DNA of 61,337 nt from an uncultured Oscillospiraceae bacterium. Lineage in GTDB: Bacteria > Bacillota > Clostridia > Oscillospirales > Oscillospiraceae. Below, piece after piece: positions 19,421 through 59,589 of this stretch. Every line of letters starts with the position of its first letter. Position 1 is the stretch's first letter. Under the pieces are notes generated by a model. That model saw nothing but the letters and a program-made list of their open reading frames with translations, did no database searches and was not told the origin of the DNA. The stretch covers positions 1-61,337 of the forward strand of contig CALXDD010000014.1 in the NCBI GenBank assembly GCA_944386985.1, written 5' to 3'. Both the position numbers and the translations under genes were made by a program.

Positions 19421-20791
<1,371 letters not shown>

Positions 20792-22603: not shown

Positions 22604-22648
22604 GGAAAGCCCTGTAGTTTCAACGGCTACAGGGCTTTCCCCTTTTTA
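22604..22648 (+). terminator. Terminator of ssp, at the prophage junction
   Basis: GGAAAGCCCTGTAG pairs with CTACAGGGCTTTCC, followed by CCTTTTTATTT. The right arm also encodes the last codons and the TAG of the integrase on the minus strand. An attachment core may lie here, but the other end is not in the window. Confidence 0.85.
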
Positions 22649-23733
22649 TTTGTTAGTAACACGTCCGCAATATCAACAGCTTTTACAAGCGTGTCTTTGT
22701 CTATGTGCGTATAAACATTGGCCGTCATGGCATAGTCCGTATGCCCCAGAATCTTCTGCAAAATCTCTGGAGCCACACCGGCCTTCACGGCCATAGATGT
22801 ATAGGTGTGCCGGGTGCTGTGCGGGGATTTGTATGGAATCCCCAACCGCTTCAATATAAAGTGGTAATCCCGTGCCCGAAAGTTGTCCGCGTCCCGGCAG
22901 CCGCTATACCCCGAAAGCAGTTTCTCGGCTATGGCCTTGTCCCGGAAATAAGAAAAATATTCCCTCGCCTCCGGCCATATTGGAATGATCCGATTTCTCC
23001 CAGCCTCGGTTTTCGAGCCACCCACTACATATAGCCCGTGGCAGTCCTCCACCCGGAGTGAAAAAAGCTCCCCTATCCGCATACCGGTGTAAATCAGCAT
23101 AAGGATAATCTTTGCTGCCTCCGTCCCGTCTTGCTTCAGCTTTTCAATTTCTTCTTCGGTGAAAACCGCCTTTTCCTTAGGTGGCTTTTGTTTTGTCTGT
23201 ACAAACTGGGCAAAATTTTGTGTAGAGATTTCTTCTCGGATTGCCCACCTCGACATTTGCCCAATCAGCTGTTTGTATTTTAATGCAATAGCGGGCTTGT
23301 CCCCTTTGGCGTCTATTACGTCCTGAAAGTCTTTTGTCCGAAGATCCCTAAACTTCTTGTCGTGCAAAGAAACGAAACCATTAAAGGCAATTTTATATGA
23401 ATTAATCCCGGCGGAAGTAAGAGTTTTAAAATGCTCTGCACTCCATTCCTCATACACTTCTCGAAAGGTCATATTATAGCGGCCTGTCACATTGCGTCCC
23501 GCCATCTTCTCCAGGGCCTCCAGGGCGTCGGTTTTTCGCTCATAGTATCCGAGAATCACCTTGTTTTTAGCGGCCACCCACGGCCTTCTCCGCCTCCCTG
23601 ACAGCTTGTAGACGGTGCCGGTGCCGTTAGCTCGCTTTAGGGCCTTGCGCTTCTCCTGGGCCTGCTTCTTGCCACAGTATGGGCAAAACAGCGCCCCCAG
23701 CGGCAGCTCTGCCCGGCACTTAATGCACTCCAT
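22627..23733 (-). CDS. int: Tyrosine-type site-specific integrase with zinc ribbon
   Basis: 368 residues. An N-terminal zinc ribbon (MECIKCRAELPLGALFCPYCG, two CxxC pairs) comes first, then an AP2-like arm-binding part, a SAM-like core-binding domain and the catalytic domain. The active-site set is visible: Arg in TGMRIGEL, HSTRHTY (His-x-x-Arg), LGHTD, and the nucleophile Tyr in VYTHID. It joins phage and host attachment sites. The zinc ribbon ahead of the integrase is an uncommon addition and may aid arm-site or protein contacts. The gene ends within the ssp terminator. Confidence 0.95.
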   Translation of the reverse strand: MECIKCRAELPLGALFCPYCGKKQAQEKRKALKRANGTGTVYKLSGRRRRPWVAAKNKVILGYYERKTDALEALEKMAGRNVTGRYNMTFREVYEEWSAEHFKTLTSAGINSYKIAFNGFVSLHDKKFRDLRTKDFQDVIDAKGDKPAIALKYKQLIGQMSRWAIREEISTQNFAQFVQTKQKPPKEKAVFTEEEIEKLKQDGTEAAKIILMLIYTGMRIGELFSLRVEDCHGLYVVGGSKTEAGRNRIIPIWPEAREYFSYFRDKAIAEKLLSGYSGCRDADNFRARDYHFILKRLGIPYKSPHSTRHTYTSMAVKAGVAPEILQKILGHTDYAMTANVYTHIDKDTLVKAVDIADVLLTNKKGKAL

Positions 23734-24735: not shown

Positions 24736-25467
24736 TTAATTTTTTAAACAATCTAAATATTTTCGCATCCACTCTTGATACTTTTCGGAATTATTAAGCA
24801 TATGTTTTTCGAAAGTATGGTATGTTTTTGGAAATTTTTCAATTCCAAGTTTTTGGATTTTCAAAAACAAATTATATTGCTCAAGCCATTTTCTGCGATC
24901 ATCAATAACATTTTGGGGAGTTCCCGGAAGAAATCCTAAATCATATTCTCCAAAAGGGAAAATATACGGAGAAACGCTGTCTTTTATCCCTTTTTTATTA
25001 ATTTGGTCATAATAGATTTTGGAAGATATGTTTTTCTTTTTCGTGGATGCATATATTATTTCTCTGTTTTCACTTTCAAAAATCCAATTTTTTCTTTCTA
25101 AAAAACATTCCAAATATTTTGAATGGAATTTCTCGTCGCTCAATTCCGCTTGCCTTTTTACACCCCAGCAATCTTTAAAATCAAACAAATAGTCTACAAA
25201 AATACCCGCTTGTATAAATTCTATTTTAGTTTTAGTGTTGTCGCAATCAGAATAATCTTCTTTTAACATAAATTCTATATAGCGAGAATCTAACGACCAC
25301 ACCTGTTTCCAATTATTCCAGTCTACTCCAATACTTCCTGGCGGATTTTTCGCGTATGCCTTTTGCCGAACGTTTGCAGCTTGTTCAAAGTTTTTTTCAA
25401 TAGCTAAAAAAATACATCGCTCAGCAATGGCTCTTTTTTCGGAAGCTAAAATTCCCAAATTCAGCAC
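24736..25467 (-). CDS. Unknown AT-rich cargo gene with capsid-protein-like C-terminal tail
   Basis: 243 residues, charged, without a membrane span or a family I recognise. Base composition is much richer in A+T than its neighbours, a sign of separate acquisition. Its last 30 residues (FPKTYHTFEKHMLNNSEKYQ...) closely match the end of the phage head morphogenesis protein at 42358 (VPKTYQTFERHKMADDDKYK...), sharing about half the positions. The start codon is uncertain: GTG at 25467 or a TTG nine bases later with AGAGGTG ahead. It lies between the membrane protein and the immunity region. Confidence 0.55.
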   Translation of the reverse strand: MLNLGILASEKRAIAERCIFLAIEKNFEQAANVRQKAYAKNPPGSIGVDWNNWKQVWSLDSRYIEFMLKEDYSDCDNTKTKIEFIQAGIFVDYLFDFKDCWGVKRQAELSDEKFHSKYLECFLERKNWIFESENREIIYASTKKKNISSKIYYDQINKKGIKDSVSPYIFPFGEYDLGFLPGTPQNVIDDRRKWLEQYNLFLKIQKLGIEKFPKTYHTFEKHMLNNSEKYQEWMRKYLDCLKN

Positions 25468-27779: not shown

Positions 27780-28043
27780 ATGGGTAACCCGCGCCGTGGG
27801 TCAGAGGAGGACCGGCTCTACCAGGAGTGGTTCTCCCCGTACTTTTCTGACCGGCGAATAGCTCAGGCGATATTTGAACGGCTGACCGAGCTGCAATTCT
27901 CCGTGCTTGTGGATTACTACGGGAACGGTAAGCCTTTTGTGGATATCGCGCTGCTGAATGGCGTAACTTGCGACGCCGTAAGAAACCGATTTAAAGTCGC
28001 GGTTGAAAAACTGCGAAAAATCCGAGAGGAGGTGCAGGAGTGA
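27780..28043 (+). CDS. Sigma-70 region 4-like HTH protein
   Basis: 87 residues. The C-terminal half (LTELQFSVLVDYYGNGKPFV, then DAVRNRFKVAVEKLRKI) fits the region-4 helix-turn-helix of sigma factors and related phage activators. GGAGG lies before the ATG. Overlaps by 4 bp with a second protein of the same kind, suggesting the two work together in phage transcription control. Confidence 0.6.
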   Translation: MGNPRRGSEEDRLYQEWFSPYFSDRRIAQAIFERLTELQFSVLVDYYGNGKPFVDIALLNGVTCDAVRNRFKVAVEKLRKIREEVQE

Positions 28044-28411
28044 CACCCTCGACCAAGTCCCAGTATGAAATACAGTCCGACGCCCGGGATTTTCACGCGT
28101 GGCTTCACGCCGAAACGACCGTCGCCCCGGACGAGGATATGCGGCATTTGAGACGCATTCTTTCTGCTGCTATTGAAAATGAGCTGACACCCAAGCAGCG
28201 CCTATACATGGCGGAGTATTACGTGGACGGCCGGACAGTAGGGCAAATCGCCCTGCGGCATAAGGTATGCCAGTCCACCGTGTCCCGAGTGCTCAAATAC
28301 GGCAGAAAGCGCCTCCGGCGGGTGCTGCGCTACTGTAGCCCGCGATTATTCGACGCCCAGGGTCAGAGATCCTATAACAAAGCCCACCAGGAGGACGCTT
28401 ATGACGAATAA
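28040..28411 (+). CDS. Sigma-70 region 4-like HTH protein
   Basis: 123 residues from a GTG start. LTPKQRLYMAEYYVDGRTVG followed by IALRHKVCQSTVSRVLKYGR is a clear region-4 type helix-turn-helix; no region 2 is present, so it is not a full sigma factor. Possible phage gene activator (ArpU/RinA-like role). AGGAGG lies upstream of the start. Confidence 0.65.
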   Translation: MTPSTKSQYEIQSDARDFHAWLHAETTVAPDEDMRHLRRILSAAIENELTPKQRLYMAEYYVDGRTVGQIALRHKVCQSTVSRVLKYGRKRLRRVLRYCSPRLFDAQGQRSYNKAHQEDAYDE

Positions 28412-33358: not shown

Positions 33359-34351
33359 ATGGAAACCATACTTGTAGGTGACGCCCTGGAGAACCTTCAG
33401 ACACTGGAGACAGAAAGCGTCAACGTGTGCGTGACATCTCCGCCTTACTACAATTTGCGAGACTATGAAGCGGACGGACAAATAGGAATGGAGGCAACAC
33501 CGGAGGACTTTGTGGAAAAGCTGGTTGCCGTATTCCGGGAGGTCCGGAGGGTGCTGCGAAGAGATGGAACGCTGTGGGTAATCATCGGAGACAGTTATGC
33601 CACGCGGTCTGGGAGGCAGCCTCCGACAAACACCAGGAACAGATGCGGGCACACAGAAAAGAGGACGCCGGCTGGGTATAAGTACAAGGACCTGATTGGG
33701 ATACCGTGGATGCTGGCGTTTGCCATGAGAGCGGATGGCTGGTATCTGCGGCAGGACATCGTTTGGAAGAAACCGAACTGCATGCCGGAAAGCGTCCGGG
33801 ACCGCTGCACAAAATCCCATGAATACATCTTCTTGCTATCTAAATCGGAGCGGTACTTTTTTGATGCAGAGGCGATCAAGGAACCGATAACGGGAGCGAG
33901 CACCAAGAGGTACCTTCAAAATCTGGAGGCGCAGAACGGATCTATGAGGCAGCCAGGAAGAGGAGGCAGGCCGATGAAAGCCGTGCTACCTCGGTTTGGA
34001 GGGGAAAAATACGGGAGCAGCGAGAAGGAAAAGGACCGAACAAAAAGCGGAAAGGCCTATACACCAACCGCCTGGAAAAACAAAAGAGATGTATGGACTG
34101 TACCAACGGGCGGCTTCAAGGGGGCCCATTTTGCTGTGTTCCCAGAGAAGCTGATAGAGCCCTGCATTTTAGCCGGAAGTCCGGCCGGAGGCGTGGTTTT
34201 GGACCCTTTTATGGGAAGCGGTACCACCGGGGCGGCGGCAAAGCGCCTGGGAAGAGATTTCGTCGGCATCGAGATCAATCCGAGGTATTGCGAGATTGCA
34301 AAGAAGCGGATCGGTGAGACGCCGGAGTTCTTTGAACAGATCACTTTATAG
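33359..34351 (+). CDS. Beta-class DNA methyltransferase (adenine-N6 or cytosine-N4)
   Basis: 330 residues. The catalytic motif IV TSPPY is at residues 26-30 and the AdoMet-binding FMGSGTTG motif near residue 280, the order of beta-class amino-methyltransferases. No restriction gene is beside it, so it is a solitary phage methylase, probably protecting the phage genome from host restriction. The base modified and the site recognised cannot be read from the sequence. Confidence 0.88.
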
Positions 34352-36841: not shown

Positions 36842-37114
36842 GTGTTCCGGTTCAAAAGATCTGTGCCCGTGAGCTATGACAGGCAGGGGTACATATACTT
36901 CGCGTCAAGGCTATACAAGGAGCTGCCGCAGAAAGCGCAGCAGGCAATTCTCAACCTTTGCCTGGAGTGCGGCGGAGAATACTATCAGGCGCTCTTTGAG
37001 TTCGTGACAACGGACGCCGGCGCCACCAATGTTTGCATGCAGCACCACCTCTCCCGCTCGACGCTGGAGCGAGCGGTAAGAAAATACTATGAGCGATTTC
37101 CAAAAGAGATATGA
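36842..37114 (+). CDS. Small HTH-like unknown protein
   Basis: 90 residues from a GTG start with GAGAGGAGGTGTTCGC upstream. MFRFKRSVPVSYDRQGYIYF opens it; the C-terminal CMQHHLSRSTLERAVRKYYE is a likely helix-turn-helix. It is the last gene before the putative origin region. Confidence 0.5.
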   Translation: MFRFKRSVPVSYDRQGYIYFASRLYKELPQKAQQAILNLCLECGGEYYQALFEFVTTDAGATNVCMQHHLSRSTLERAVRKYYERFPKEI

Positions 37115-37488
37115 CAGGAGCACCATTTTCGTGATCTCACGAAAATGATAACGGCAGAGGTCTATATGCGGGCTGCTTGGGGAGCACCCGGCGGCCCGCC
37201 TTTTTCCTCCTGTTTATATATAAGATCACGCCCCGGTAAGGGTCTCGCCGGCGCCGTCTGGTACACGGCGCCGGTGCTCCGGTGCAATTCCGGTGAGCCG
37301 GGACTTCAACTTCTGACCTTCTCTATACGGCGCCGATAACTTGCTGGCCATTTGCCGGCGACTTGCGCAGCGGCGCCGCACAGAGAGAGCCAGAAAAGTG
37401 GATACCTATATATATTCGCGCGCGCGCGTTTTTTCGGGCTTGGTAAGAGCCTAAGTTTTCAACCATCCCACAAAAGGAGGAACTGAAC
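37115..37488 (+). other. Palindrome- and repeat-rich gap, candidate replication origin
   Basis: No gene fits in these 374 bp. In order they hold a near-perfect palindrome, CATTTTCGTGA/TCACGAAAATG (37124-37147); a terminator; four copies of the palindrome CGGCGCCG (around 37249, 37266, 37328 and 37371), the first two forming a 10-bp stem with a seven-base loop (37248-37274); an alternating TATATATAT (37407-37415); and CGCGCGCGCGCG (37417-37428). The HUH initiator gene follows at once. Hairpin loops, iteron-like repeats and an easily melted segment suit a replication origin, but this is inference. Confidence 0.5.
37168..37206 (+). terminator. Early-operon terminator
   Basis: GCGGGC pairs with GCCCGC across a GC-rich loop and is followed by CTTTTT. 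It closes the early gene run before the putative origin. Confidence 0.6.
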
Positions 37489-38292
37489 ATGGCGGAGGGT
37501 TACTGGGTAGTGAGAACATACGAGGCCGGGAACGTAGGAGAGAAAACCAAGTTCTGGGTACCGGGCCGGCGTCCGGACAAATCCACCCGGAGGGAGAAGG
37601 TGGAGCTGCGCAAGCAGGAACAGAACGAGCACTCCGCAGAGAAGCAGCTGGCCAGGCTGATCAATGAGAACTTCGGACCCGGGGATCTGCTGATGGGGCT
37701 GGACTACTCTGAAGCAGGGATGGACCGTCTTATGGCATGGGCGTCTGCCAGATCGGGGAGCCTGGATCAGGCGGACGAGGAGACCAGGGCGGAGATCATC
37801 AAAAAGGCGGCGGAGCGGGAGATGCGACTGGCCCTCCGCCGGGTCAAGCGGGAGTTGGCAAAGGAAGGCGTCGCTTTAAAATACATAGCCATCACCTCGG
37901 ACATGGACGGAGACACCGGGGAGGCGGTCCGGGTACACCACCACCTGATCGTTCCGGCCGGCGTCCAGGAGCTCTTCGTGGAGAAATGGGCCGAGCTGGG
38001 AAGCGTGGACTGGGAGCCCATGTCAAACCAGCAGGACTACACCCCCATTGCCGCCTACTTCATCCGGCAGGTGCGCAGAGTGCCGGACGCCAAGAAGTAC
38101 GTCAGCTCCAGGAACCTGTCACGGCCCCAGCCGAAGGATCGAGTTGTCCTCACAGAGGCGGAGCTGCGGGTGCCAAGGGGCGGAGAGCTGCTGCACAGAA
38201 ACGAGTTCAAGCCGGGGCGGCCCCAGTACATCCGTTACGTGCTGCCGGATGGGAGGAAGCGGCGGAAGCCGCCTGAAGAGAAAAACGCATAA
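37489..38292 (+). CDS. HUH endonuclease, rolling-circle-type replication initiator
   Basis: 267 residues. A HUH-type metal motif is seen at H150-H152 (VRVHHHLIVP) after a strand KYIAITSDMDGD. Candidate catalytic tyrosines lie 30-50 residues later (DYTPIAAYFIRQ with Y184 and Y190, and KKYVSSR with Y204), with nearby lysines as in Rep proteins. HUH enzymes nick one DNA strand and stay bound through Tyr. AAAGGAGGAACTGAAC precedes the ATG. The upstream repeat-rich gap is the natural target. Alternative: a relaxase-like or regulatory HUH protein. Rolling-circle-type initiation in a terminase phage would be notable. Confidence 0.65.
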   Translation: MAEGYWVVRTYEAGNVGEKTKFWVPGRRPDKSTRREKVELRKQEQNEHSAEKQLARLINENFGPGDLLMGLDYSEAGMDRLMAWASARSGSLDQADEETRAEIIKKAAEREMRLALRRVKRELAKEGVALKYIAITSDMDGDTGEAVRVHHHLIVPAGVQELFVEKWAELGSVDWEPMSNQQDYTPIAAYFIRQVRRVPDAKKYVSSRNLSRPQPKDRVVLTEAELRVPRGGELLHRNEFKPGRPQYIRYVLPDGRKRRKPPEEKNA

Positions 38293-39240: not shown

Positions 39241-39720
39241 GTGGTGAGCGTGAGAAAACGTTTGACAGCTAAGCAAAAGCAGAGAATCATAGCAGACTAT
39301 ACCACGCTTGGAACTTATGCCGCAGTAGCGAGAAAATACAAAATATCGCCCCACACGGTACGCGACATCGTGGCCGCAGATCCAACGGTAGCCGACAAGT
39401 GCCGCCAAAAAAAAGACGAATCGTTAGAGCAGGTCCTCACGCACCTGGGAAAGCGGGCTGGTAAAGCTTGCGACCTTATAGACGTATTCATGCAATACCT
39501 GGAGAGCCCTCAAAAGCTGGAGCGGGCTAACGTCCGTGACCTGGCCACGGCGCTGGGAATCGTGGTGGACAAATTTACGGGGACCGCACCGGAGATTGAT
39601 AAAATGCGGGCCGAGATCGCTAAACTGAACGCAGCTATCAGGTCTCCTGGAAAATCGGATTCTGAGGACGACCCCATAACCAAGAGCTTAAAGGAGGATG
39701 TCAAGAATGGGCTTCTCTGA
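39241..39720 (+). CDS. Terminase small subunit
   Basis: 159 residues. The N-terminus is a homeodomain-like helix-turn-helix (LTAKQKQRIIADYTTLGTYA then ARKYKISPHTVRDIV), followed by a helical oligomerisation part. Its place directly before, and overlapping, the large terminase supports the call. It recognises the packaging site on phage DNA. Start uncertain among GTG codons at 39241, 39244 and 39250. Confidence 0.7.
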   Translation: MVSVRKRLTAKQKQRIIADYTTLGTYAAVARKYKISPHTVRDIVAADPTVADKCRQKKDESLEQVLTHLGKRAGKACDLIDVFMQYLESPQKLERANVRDLATALGIVVDKFTGTAPEIDKMRAEIAKLNAAIRSPGKSDSEDDPITKSLKEDVKNGLL

Positions 39721-40948
39721 AAAGCAACGAACGGTTCTCAGGTTTCCGTATACGGGGTACGACGCATTGATTTGCGACGGCGCTGTCCGCAGTGGAAAAA
39801 CTTCCGTTATGGCGCTATCGTTTTTCCTGTGGGCTATGAGCAATTTTCGAGACTGTTCTTTCGCGCTATGCGGGAAATCCGTGGGCGCGGTACAACGGAA
39901 CATGGTAACCCCTTTACTTGGCGTAATGTACCTACAAGAACAGTTTGACATTAAGTACAACCGGGCCGACCATGTGATCGTGGCCCGGCGTGGAGACCGG
40001 GAAAACCGGTTTTACCTATTTGGCGGAAAGGATGAGTCCTCCGCTGCGCTGATACAGGGTATCACTCTGGCGGGCGTGCTCCTGGACGAGGCGGCGCTTA
40101 TGCCACGGTCCTTCGTGGAGCAGGCTCTCGCCCGGTGCAGCGTGGCGGGGTCTAAATTGTGGTTCAATTGCAACCCAGAGGGGCCGGAACACTGGTTCAG
40201 AAAAGAATGGATTTTGAAGCCGGAGAAGCACAACGCCCTGCATCTGCATTTTACCATGGATGATAACCCCTCTCTGACCGATGAAATCCGGGAGCGCTAT
40301 AAGTCCATGTATTCCGGCGTGTTTTACGAGCGTTTCATTTTGGGCCGCTGGGTGATGTCGGAGGGTCTAATTTATGACATGTTCGATACGGACGCCAATA
40401 CATACACGGACGCGCAGGCCCCGGCCTCGCTGCATTTCAGCGGTGTTCGGACTGTGGCTTGCGATTATGGCACAACTAACCCAACAGTGTTTCTTGATAT
40501 CTACGACTATGACGGGACTATCTATGTAGACCGTGAATACCGCTGGGACAGCCGGGATATGGACAACGGCGGGAGGCAGAAAACCGATGAAGAGTATGCC
40601 GATGATATGGAGGCATTTCTCCACGGTGACCAGTGCGCCATCATCGTGGACCCGTCGGCGGCCTCATTCATTGCAGCCCTGCGGCGCCGGGGCTTGTATG
40701 TGGTCGCTGCGGAAAACGACGTGCTGGACGGTATCCGGCGGACGGCCGCGCTGATCCAGCGCCGTAAACTGCTGGCCAATAAGACCTGCGCCGGGCTTAT
40801 CGGAGAATTGGGCACCTACCTGTGGGATGAAAAGTCCTGCAAATTGGGCGTTGACAAGCCGCTGAAAGAGCGAGACCACGGTCCGGATGCCCTGCGGTAC
40901 TACGTAAACTCACTACCCGATTGGAGGTTTGACGTTGTCCAGACGTAA
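39707..40948 (+). CDS. Terminase large subunit (PBSX-type)
   Basis: 413 residues from ATG 39707 (AAGGAGGATGTCAAGA upstream). The Walker A motif GAVRSGKTS is near residue 25, Walker B GVLLDEAA near 125, and the C-terminal RNase-H-like nuclease shows VACDYGTTNP, IIVDPSA and DHGPDALRYY with the metal-binding Asp residues. It powers DNA entry into the prohead and cuts the concatemer. Overlaps the small subunit gene by 14 bp. Confidence 0.95.
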   Translation: MGFSEKQRTVLRFPYTGYDALICDGAVRSGKTSVMALSFFLWAMSNFRDCSFALCGKSVGAVQRNMVTPLLGVMYLQEQFDIKYNRADHVIVARRGDRENRFYLFGGKDESSAALIQGITLAGVLLDEAALMPRSFVEQALARCSVAGSKLWFNCNPEGPEHWFRKEWILKPEKHNALHLHFTMDDNPSLTDEIRERYKSMYSGVFYERFILGRWVMSEGLIYDMFDTDANTYTDAQAPASLHFSGVRTVACDYGTTNPTVFLDIYDYDGTIYVDREYRWDSRDMDNGGRQKTDEEYADDMEAFLHGDQCAIIVDPSAASFIAALRRRGLYVVAAENDVLDGIRRTAALIQRRKLLANKTCAGLIGELGTYLWDEKSCKLGVDKPLKERDHGPDALRYYVNSLPDWRFDVVQT

Positions 40949-43965: not shown

Positions 43966-43974
43966 ATACCGTTC

Positions 43975-44048
43975 CTCGCCCTAAGTGGTGGGCGAGAAGG
44001 ACCGAGTGGGGTCAACTGCTGAGAAATCGGCGGTTGGCTCCTTTTTTA
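43975..44048 (+). terminator. Tandem hairpins with a strong intrinsic terminator inside the late operon
   Basis: First, CTCGCCC/GGGCGAG (43975-43996). Then a 15-bp stem from 44008 to 44041 closed by a GAAA tetraloop and followed by TTTTTT. The second hairpin is a textbook intrinsic terminator, yet essential head genes lie downstream, so read-through, antitermination or a new promoter must be used. Confidence 0.75.
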
Positions 44049-58410: not shown

Positions 58411-59589
58411 ATGCCTGAAAATCCCATTACCGTCCCACTGCCGCAAGACTTGCCGGAAAATTGGAAAACCTCACAAACCGTATCTGTTGACGGAACCAGT
58501 GTGGGACTCACGCCGCAGCACGGGTACAATTATCTCATGGAGCAAGTAAACAACGCCCAAACTGCTGCCCAGCAGGTAGGAAACGCCATACCCTTATGTG
58601 CCGATTTGTCCCTCTCCAATTTAAACACACCCCAAATGGCGCTCTACCACTTAGGGGCCGGTGTTCGGCCCAATTTGCTGGACAATCCCTATTTTGTGGG
58701 CGGAGGCTCCCAGCAGGGCGGAGGGCAGCTACCAATCAATCAAATGGGGTTGATAAGCTACAATATTGGCCAGAGAAAAACTACAATTGACAGGTGGGAA
58801 AGCACCGTTACTTCTATCACCGCATCTTTGTCTCAATCAGGCTTGACTTTAGATAGTTCTGGTACATCCGGCGAATTTTATCAACGAATAAGTTCAAATT
58901 TTTCAATGTTTGCAAAAAAAGTTCTAACACTTTCCGCCCTTACAGTGGATGGACAGCTATACACTGCTTCCGGGCAGGTGCCGGCAGAAAGCCCAGATGT
59001 GCTTACCGTATTTTTGCAGACCGCTCTTCCGTTTGGATTCCTGCGATTTGCGTGGGGCGTTGCAAATCTATCGTATTTTGTTTCTTTTGTATGGAATGAA
59101 ATCGGCAGTATCGAATTAGCGGCCGTGAAGCTGGAAATAGGAGACACCCAAACGCTTGCTTATCAGGACACAGACGGAAACTGGCAAATTCTTCCCCAGC
59201 CTGACATGGATTATATTATGCAGTTGGCAAAGTGCCAGAACTACCTAATCAATTTAGACAATGGCAGCACAGTATCCACCAGGGACTACCCCGGGACTTG
59301 GGTACAGACCGCCTCAAATGCCGGACAGTATTTTATTCCGTTACCTACTACTATGCGTACAACGCCGGGGACGGTAACACCGGAGGGACAATTCTACATT
59401 TGGGGGTATGGTAATAGTGGTTCTGCATCTATCCCCGTCACGCTCGCATACGCACCGTCTGCAAGCACGCCTAATACTGTTGTAGTTCAGGTTTCGGTTA
59501 CGGGTGACACACTTCCGGATCTGTCAATTTCTTATGGACTATCTCGCAGAGACTCGTCAAGTAGAATACTGGTTTCCGCAGAATTGTAA
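58411..59589 (+). CDS. Tail fibre / receptor-binding protein
   Basis: 392 residues opening MPENPITVPLPQDLPENWKT. The N-terminal part carries the INQMGL-LISYNIGQRKTTIDRW-type segment common in tail fibre proteins of Firmicutes phages (NLLDNPYFVGGG...DRWE). The C-terminus is beta-rich and should contact the host. Base composition is richer in A+T than the baseplate genes, as usual for exchanged receptor-binding genes. Confidence 0.75.
   Translation: MPENPITVPLPQDLPENWKTSQTVSVDGTSVGLTPQHGYNYLMEQVNNAQTAAQQVGNAIPLCADLSLSNLNTPQMALYHLGAGVRPNLLDNPYFVGGGSQQGGGQLPINQMGLISYNIGQRKTTIDRWESTVTSITASLSQSGLTLDSSGTSGEFYQRISSNFSMFAKKVLTLSALTVDGQLYTASGQVPAESPDVLTVFLQTALPFGFLRFAWGVANLSYFVSFVWNEIGSIELAAVKLEIGDTQTLAYQDTDGNWQILPQPDMDYIMQLAKCQNYLINLDNGSTVSTRDYPGTWVQTASNAGQYFIPLPTTMRTTPGTVTPEGQFYIWGYGNSGSASIPVTLAYAPSASTPNTVVVQVSVTGDTLPDLSISYGLSRRDSSSRILVSAEL

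Follow-up and report, generated by a model that had tools for sequence, protein, structure and literature searches.

How might a tailed phage begin to replicate with a single initiator protein of its own? The question is raised by a contig of 61,337 nucleotides from an uncultured Oscillospiraceae bacterium (GenBank assembly GCA_944386985.1, CALXDD010000014.1), taken here in full as the window, and in particular by the gene starting at 37489, which we call rep, together with the 374-bp gap that separates it from the end of the preceding open reading frame (ORF) at 37114. A first-pass annotation had noticed a HUH motif in the gene product and several palindromes in the gap, and had proposed that replication starts with a nick. 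Our analysis leads us to think, with a probability of roughly 0.78, that gap and gene form the rolling-circle replication module of a tailed temperate phage, with a conserved 66-bp element in the gap as the double-strand origin.

The gene product can be assigned with some precision. Rep, which does carry the H150-x-H152 motif, matches phrog_3584 ("replication initiation protein") over its full length (expectation value, E, 2.3e-47; residues 3-261 against profile positions 2-257 of 265). Its match to Pfam PF23343 (REP_ORF2-G2P; E 7.5e-4) reaches 20.2 bits, under the curated cut-off of 27.8, and that same family is matched at E up to 0.1 by 30 of the 31 aligned family members, the best at 8.3e-18. 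Other Pfam families are matched by few of the 31 (Phage_GPA by two; Rep_1, Helitron_like_N and Gemini_AL1 by one each), and the window Rep gives no Phage_GPA match at E up to 0.1. In every row of the alignment H150, H152, W167 and Y190 are invariant, the last being the single invariant tyrosine; the two histidines are probably metal ligands and Y190 the catalytic residue. The YxxK position holds R in the window Rep, K in many relatives and N, G, E or S elsewhere. An AlphaFold2 model of high confidence (predicted local distance difference test score 91.5, predicted template modelling score 0.87) has the HUH motif in strand 146-155 and Y190 in the following helix, 185-193. Its top three BFVD matches are siphovirus ORF2/G2P and gene A proteins (E 2e-17 to 1.6e-13), with microvirus Reps ranking lower; sequence searches of the PDB found no HUH protein. 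The gene is thus predicted, from family, fold and invariant residues, to encode a HUH replication initiator of an already known kind, much as had been proposed. The accompanying view that a nicking start is uncommon among such tailed phages looks too strong, because of 250 host-family genomes 64 contain a match to the rep family and several siphovirus proteins bear the same family name.

What the relatives of rep have in common is the 66-bp element and not the palindromes favoured earlier. The element comprises, in this order, an AT-rich stretch, a CG-alternating inverted repeat and GGGCTTGGTAAGAGCCTAAGTTTTCAACCA. A sequence-only model of it, R1, built from 14 aligned copies, matches the window just once at E up to 10 (53.8 bits, to a copy that is itself a training row). 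When R1 was run on the 250 host-family genomes it recovered the 14 training matches and two others at E <1e-3, both directly before rep; on 345 genomes of the order it gave five new matches at that threshold, two of them before rep (G407, 7.5e-7; G524, 4.8e-4). Genomes that have both rep and the element include those of Oscillibacter valericigenes Sjm18-20, Oscillibacter ruminantium GH1 and Pseudoflavonifractor sp. An85.

Two sets of loci, one selected by DNA and one by protein, allow the association to be read from either side. The first comprised at least 120 virus stretches picked by 14 bases of the element core: the element (E <1e-4) is present in 16 of the 120 listed, and the same 16, with no others, have rep, at least two pairs among them being identical in element and upstream DNA. 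The second comprised 84 rep loci, 22 in genomes and 62 in virus contigs; the virus-contig scan yielded no relative with the window Rep alone as query and the 62 with a closer alignment. Eighty of these loci were searched, the remaining four (L092, L115, L118, L152) being already in the DNA-selected set, all with the element. In 76 of the 80 a match (E up to 0.01) lies on the same strand, 13-219 nucleotides before the rep match; the matched part is the conserved CG stretch plus 30 nucleotides 3' of it, and the matches represent 55 distinct sequences, some weak or covering the core half only. Three of the four misses (L227, L289, L294) start within 55 nucleotides of the rep match, and the fourth (L295) is just 27% identical. 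Gap and gene are thus conserved as a pair in related phages. The tests are not fully independent of one another, since L222, L226 and L234 among the 80 are training genomes and several contigs overlap the DNA-selected set. Locus L031, for which a wrong ORF had been chosen, is left out of alignments A3 and A4. In a tree of 30 Reps, the 16 that have the element are set apart from the rest by a branch that occurs in 96% of 200 bootstrap trees and has support of 94/96, slightly under the tool's own mark of 95/80; for the other 14 no element was found with filters that can lose weak copies.

Some matches to the element weigh against a strict tie between element and gene. At E 0.002-0.0094 in the 250 genomes, eight of nine R1 matches fall in loci without rep, the ninth being the opposite strand of a true copy. 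Three weak new matches in the order genomes (L080, L082, L083) also lack rep, as do two in the DNA-selected set (L105, E 0.0098; L186, E 0.0066).

The inverted repeat of the element, hairpin I, has a mean best stem of 8.19 bp in 32 distinct copies versus 4.51 for dinucleotide-shuffled sequences (maximum of 100 sets, 5.06), although in L066, L067 and L079 the stem scored differs from the CG repeat. The outer arms vary in sequence yet pair (AAGAAC/GTTCTT, GATAC/GTATC, AAATAC/GTATTT, CATTC/GAATG); RNAalifold on a MAFFT alignment failed to line the hairpin up. CG alternation, considered as an essential feature, had to be given up because L170 retains the stem without it. Alignment A5 excludes L060, L066 and L068, in which the anchor was poor or wrongly placed, as well as L197 and L201, which are duplicates. 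For the conserved core 3' of the hairpin, aligned in 29 copies, the nick sites of phiX174 and pC194, CTTG/ATA, offer an analogy, on the strength of which we would guess at a nick at CTTG/GTAA, within CTTGGTAA. A covarying small second hairpin around GGTAA at this core was entertained and dropped, shuffles pairing equally well: the GGCTY..RRGCC helix has 78.6% of its cells paired, no better than in the shuffles.

Many copies are directly preceded by a long imperfect hairpin of locus-specific sequence, represented in the window by hairpin 0. The 115-nucleotide region around it folds with a z of -4.73, and the 115 nucleotides before the CG repeat in 19 loci hand-picked from 34 have a mean z of -4.41, 17 of the 19 lying below -2, with the folding energy in some (e.g. 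L152) coming from structures other than hairpin 0. Its position makes it single-strand-origin-like; a terminator would be the rival explanation.

Replication could then proceed as follows. Rep would recognise the 66-bp element, where the CG inverted repeat and its AT-rich flank are expected to melt if the DNA is supercoiled, and would use Y190 to nick the strand carrying GGGCTTGGTAAGAGCCTAAGTTT, probably within CTTGGTAA. While Rep stayed attached to the 5' end, a host helicase and polymerase would extend the 3' end, and hairpin 0, exposed last on the displaced strand, may serve as the single-strand origin for the second strand. The phage could then do without genes for a helicase loader, a primase or a polymerase. 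In keeping with what had been noted earlier, no primase, replicative helicase, helicase loader or polymerase was recognisable among 44 prophage ORFs scanned against Pfam and/or PHROGs, an absence that is only partial because several short ORFs and about 10 late genes lay outside the scan. One apparent exception, a phrog_16 "DNA helicase" match (E 3.9e-4, 49 residues), falls within the protein encoded at 33359, a DNA methylase, where it overlaps the match to the methylase family.

The features discussed are collected in the table.

Features of the window that bear on the proposed replication module
Feature	Position	Strand	Basis or remark
Tyrosine integrase	22630-23733	minus	Apparent prophage boundary
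ORF of 90 residues, possibly helix-turn-helix	36842-37114	plus	Pfam HTH_AraC, E 0.034 at best
Inverted repeat, 22 of 24 bases	37124-37147		11-bp arms around a non-palindromic TC; just after the 90-residue ORF
Three-helix structured RNA candidate	37210-37312	plus	Covariation; helix 2 is the CGGCGCCG hairpin, 37248-37274
Long imperfect inverted repeat (hairpin 0)	37311-37395	plus	Single-strand-origin-like by position; contains the third and fourth CGGCGCCG
Conserved 66-bp element, putative double-strand origin	37401-37466	plus	R1 match and conservation upstream of rep
CG-alternating inverted repeat (hairpin I)	37417-37428	plus	12-base core only in this copy; longer stems in most relatives
Conserved core GGGCTTGGTAAGAGCCTAAGTTTTCAACCA	37436-37465	plus	Alignment of 29 copies; nick predicted within CTTGGTAA
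rep, HUH (one-tyrosine) replication initiator, 267 residues	37489-38292	plus	phrog_3584, conserved HUH and Tyr, fold model
Terminase large subunit	39698-40948	plus	Terminase_6N, E 1.3e-10; phrog_2, E 2.3e-45; downstream of rep

Other roles for the element and for the protein can be imagined. An element immediately before rep and on the same strand, with a hairpin able to form in RNA and an AT-rich, TATA-like stretch ahead of it, could be a regulatory leader or operator of the gene, acting as an RNA hairpin or as an autoregulatory binding site for Rep, with the true origin elsewhere. We consider this unlikely: the distance from hairpin I to the rep start codon varies from 48 to 321 nucleotides in 14 copies (start codons picked by script), and the core that follows the hairpin is conserved in sequence without a visible ribosome-binding role. 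Rfam likewise gave nothing for the element: over six sources the sole match to reach its gathering score is a gut-2 RNA in another part of the window, and the gap holds no credible one. One initiator together with one cis element that holds the binding and nick sites is moreover the usual layout of rolling-circle replication (PMC5714925). That the protein is instead a relaxase or transposase-like enzyme, serving mobilisation or movement of the insertion-sequence kind, seems to us very improbable. HUH enzymes do include both, one family member has a weak Helitron_like_N match, and a PcfJ-like protein, with a family name reminiscent of a conjugative plasmid, is encoded in the loci of three relatives; family and fold matches are nevertheless to viral replication proteins, rep lies near terminases of several families, and none of the 44 scanned ORFs matches a conjugation family.

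The least probable of the alternatives is the one advanced in the first-pass annotation, which looked for the nick in the CGGCGCCG hairpin at 37248-37274. Its inventory of the gap was accurate: CGGCGCCG occurs four times (37249, 37266, 37328, 37371; 15 times in the whole window versus 2.61 expected), the hairpin is a perfect 10-bp stem with a 7-base loop, which counts in its favour, and the 12-base CG stretch at 37417-37428, with an alternating TA stretch immediately before it, was listed too, though not proposed for nicking. The hairpin generally does not recur in the DNA upstream of relatives' reps, and its pairs covary as RNA. We reject it as the nick site because a conserved structured RNA contains it as helix 2; that RNA is found in 8 of the 80 rep loci, versus 76 of the same 80 for the element, and also in clusters of transfer RNA (tRNA) genes with no rep in the locus retrieved. 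The proposal of a nick-initiated replication thus keeps its support from the HUH family, the tailed-phage setting and the conserved gap-gene pair, and loses its choice of hairpin. The palindrome nearest the preceding ORF, at 37124-37147, is real as an inverted repeat, with its central TC the exception to the symmetry. Its pattern is unique in the window, with an arm of at least 11 in 1 of 500 dinucleotide shuffles of the gap, and it has no counterpart upstream of the relatives' reps examined; several relatives have unrelated long inverted repeats at a similar place.

The structured RNA deserves attention in its own right. Three copies have 9 of 22 pairs changed on both sides with 100% pairing, and eight distinct rows have 14 of 22 so changed; in neither case was any of 500 shuffles as good. 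The eight-row alignment has 98.1% of its cells paired versus 74.6% in shuffles, having been fitted to the model and hence being biased toward it. Covariation is what supports the structure, because the folding of single copies is unremarkable (z of -1.76 and -1.79 for two cuts of the window, 0.42 for L092 and -2.61 for L152). Model R2 found three further copies in two other genomes of the 250, and pattern searches of virus contigs added more. Besides the window, copies are present in L092, L152, L205-L217, L245, L254 and L255, with weaker ones in L265, L266 and L280; those of L205, L210, L211 and L214 sit among tRNA genes, L205 and L214 being apparently the same region, and among the eight rep loci two pairs look like duplicates. 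A T-arm-like stem and an acceptor-like stem suggest that the RNA may mimic tRNA. From position 25000 of the window onward ARAGORN predicts no tRNA gene, and no Rfam family was matched by the RNA in the window (best match 18.3 bits against a gathering score of 70.4) or in L205, L206, L207, L210 and L152 (these five searched at E up to 0.1).

Precedents exist for a module of the kind we propose. The gpA protein of the tailed temperate phage P2 is a HUH initiator that works in rolling-circle mode, with two active tyrosines and a nick site inside gene A; the present Rep resembles it as a HUH initiator in a tailed temperate phage and differs in its family, as the Phage_GPA results indicate, and in its one invariant tyrosine. 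Rolling-circle plasmids of the pT181 and pC194 types have other sequence and Rep families. Their origins, a double-strand origin with a single-strand origin upstream, share the layout seen here (hairpin region, nick region, rep), whereas the replicon here is a prophage of 38 kb or more. Also close are the phrog_3584/PF23343 proteins of siphoviruses ctwuP1 and cthae16 and of the Butyrivibrio phages Arawn and Idris, of the same family and similar predicted fold, the annotated replication initiation protein of Arawn being 28.8% identical to Rep over 84%. In 15 loci of more distant family members, a sample without the upstream DNA of Arawn, no element was found ahead of the gene. The main text of the Arawn paper has, by term search, no word beginning "replication" or "rolling circle" (PMC7372960). 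Two further papers are relevant: Kazlauskas et al. (2019) place a Clostridiales HUH Rep cluster in presumed integrated elements of unrecognised type (PMC6668415), and a study of archaeal Reps from 2026 reports, for an unrelated Rep family, a bipartite origin of similar make-up, with a conserved hairpin and, upstream, an inverted repeat (PMC13107129). Our guess is that the former cluster is the phrog_3584 family described here. Among the literature matches listed, judged by title or the start of the abstract, none concerned this origin or the structured RNA.

The prophage apparently extends from the integrase to the contig end, with an obg-like gene at 19511 on the host side of the boundary, and library scans recognise terminase, portal, major capsid, tail sheath, tape measure and baseplate J genes among its ORFs. 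By its gene content the host phage is contractile-tailed; it is temperate and has its terminase 3' of rep, in agreement with the earlier view of a terminase phage. A comparable setting recurs among the relatives. Of 14 rep loci in which one or two large neighbouring ORFs were scanned (L040 and L044 left out), 12 have a terminase or portal gene within about 3 kb of rep, neither being detected among the ORFs scanned in L043 and L047. The five best terminase families near these reps are phrog_2, 9, 15, 979 and 3717. Ten large early ORFs of rep loci comprised one ParB, three PcfJ-like, three DUF3102, two methylases and one MatE, with no helicase or primase among them. On balance we lean towards the wider view that a compact rolling-circle replicon, made up of the single-strand-origin-like hairpin, the CG-hairpin origin and the one-tyrosine Rep, is exchanged as a unit between unrelated tailed phages that infect Oscillospiraceae and their kin (at least five terminase families), replacing theta replication genes and giving an identity to the orphan Clostridiales HUH cluster, and that some of these phages carry next to it a new structured RNA resembling tRNA. 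In many tailed phages of gut Clostridia no replication genes are recognised; if our interpretation is correct, a set of these phages would be explained by a single initiator protein acting on an origin that is short and searchable, their origins could be found by pattern, and nicking, mini-replicon and induction tests would become possible.

The 90-residue protein encoded just before the gap may be a partner or regulator. Its homologues adjoin rep on either side, with tblastn matches in 9 of the 20 context loci and in 6 of the 16 listed virus loci that bear rep. Elsewhere in the prophage, two neighbouring small proteins of the early region (27780-28411) have sigma-factor-like matches, and the gut-2 RNA (RF02990), above its gathering score, lies at 43972-44019 inside the head gene region. 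Locus L043 (G000:C52) holds a second, diverged rep of the same genome, together with the same origin element; at the end of the contig is a 34-residue stretch with 85% identity to the window protein at 58411. Extra partial rep-like copies adjoin the full-length gene in three genomes (G078:C1:138265-139276, G182:C2:101761-102240 and G237:C23:120538-121059).
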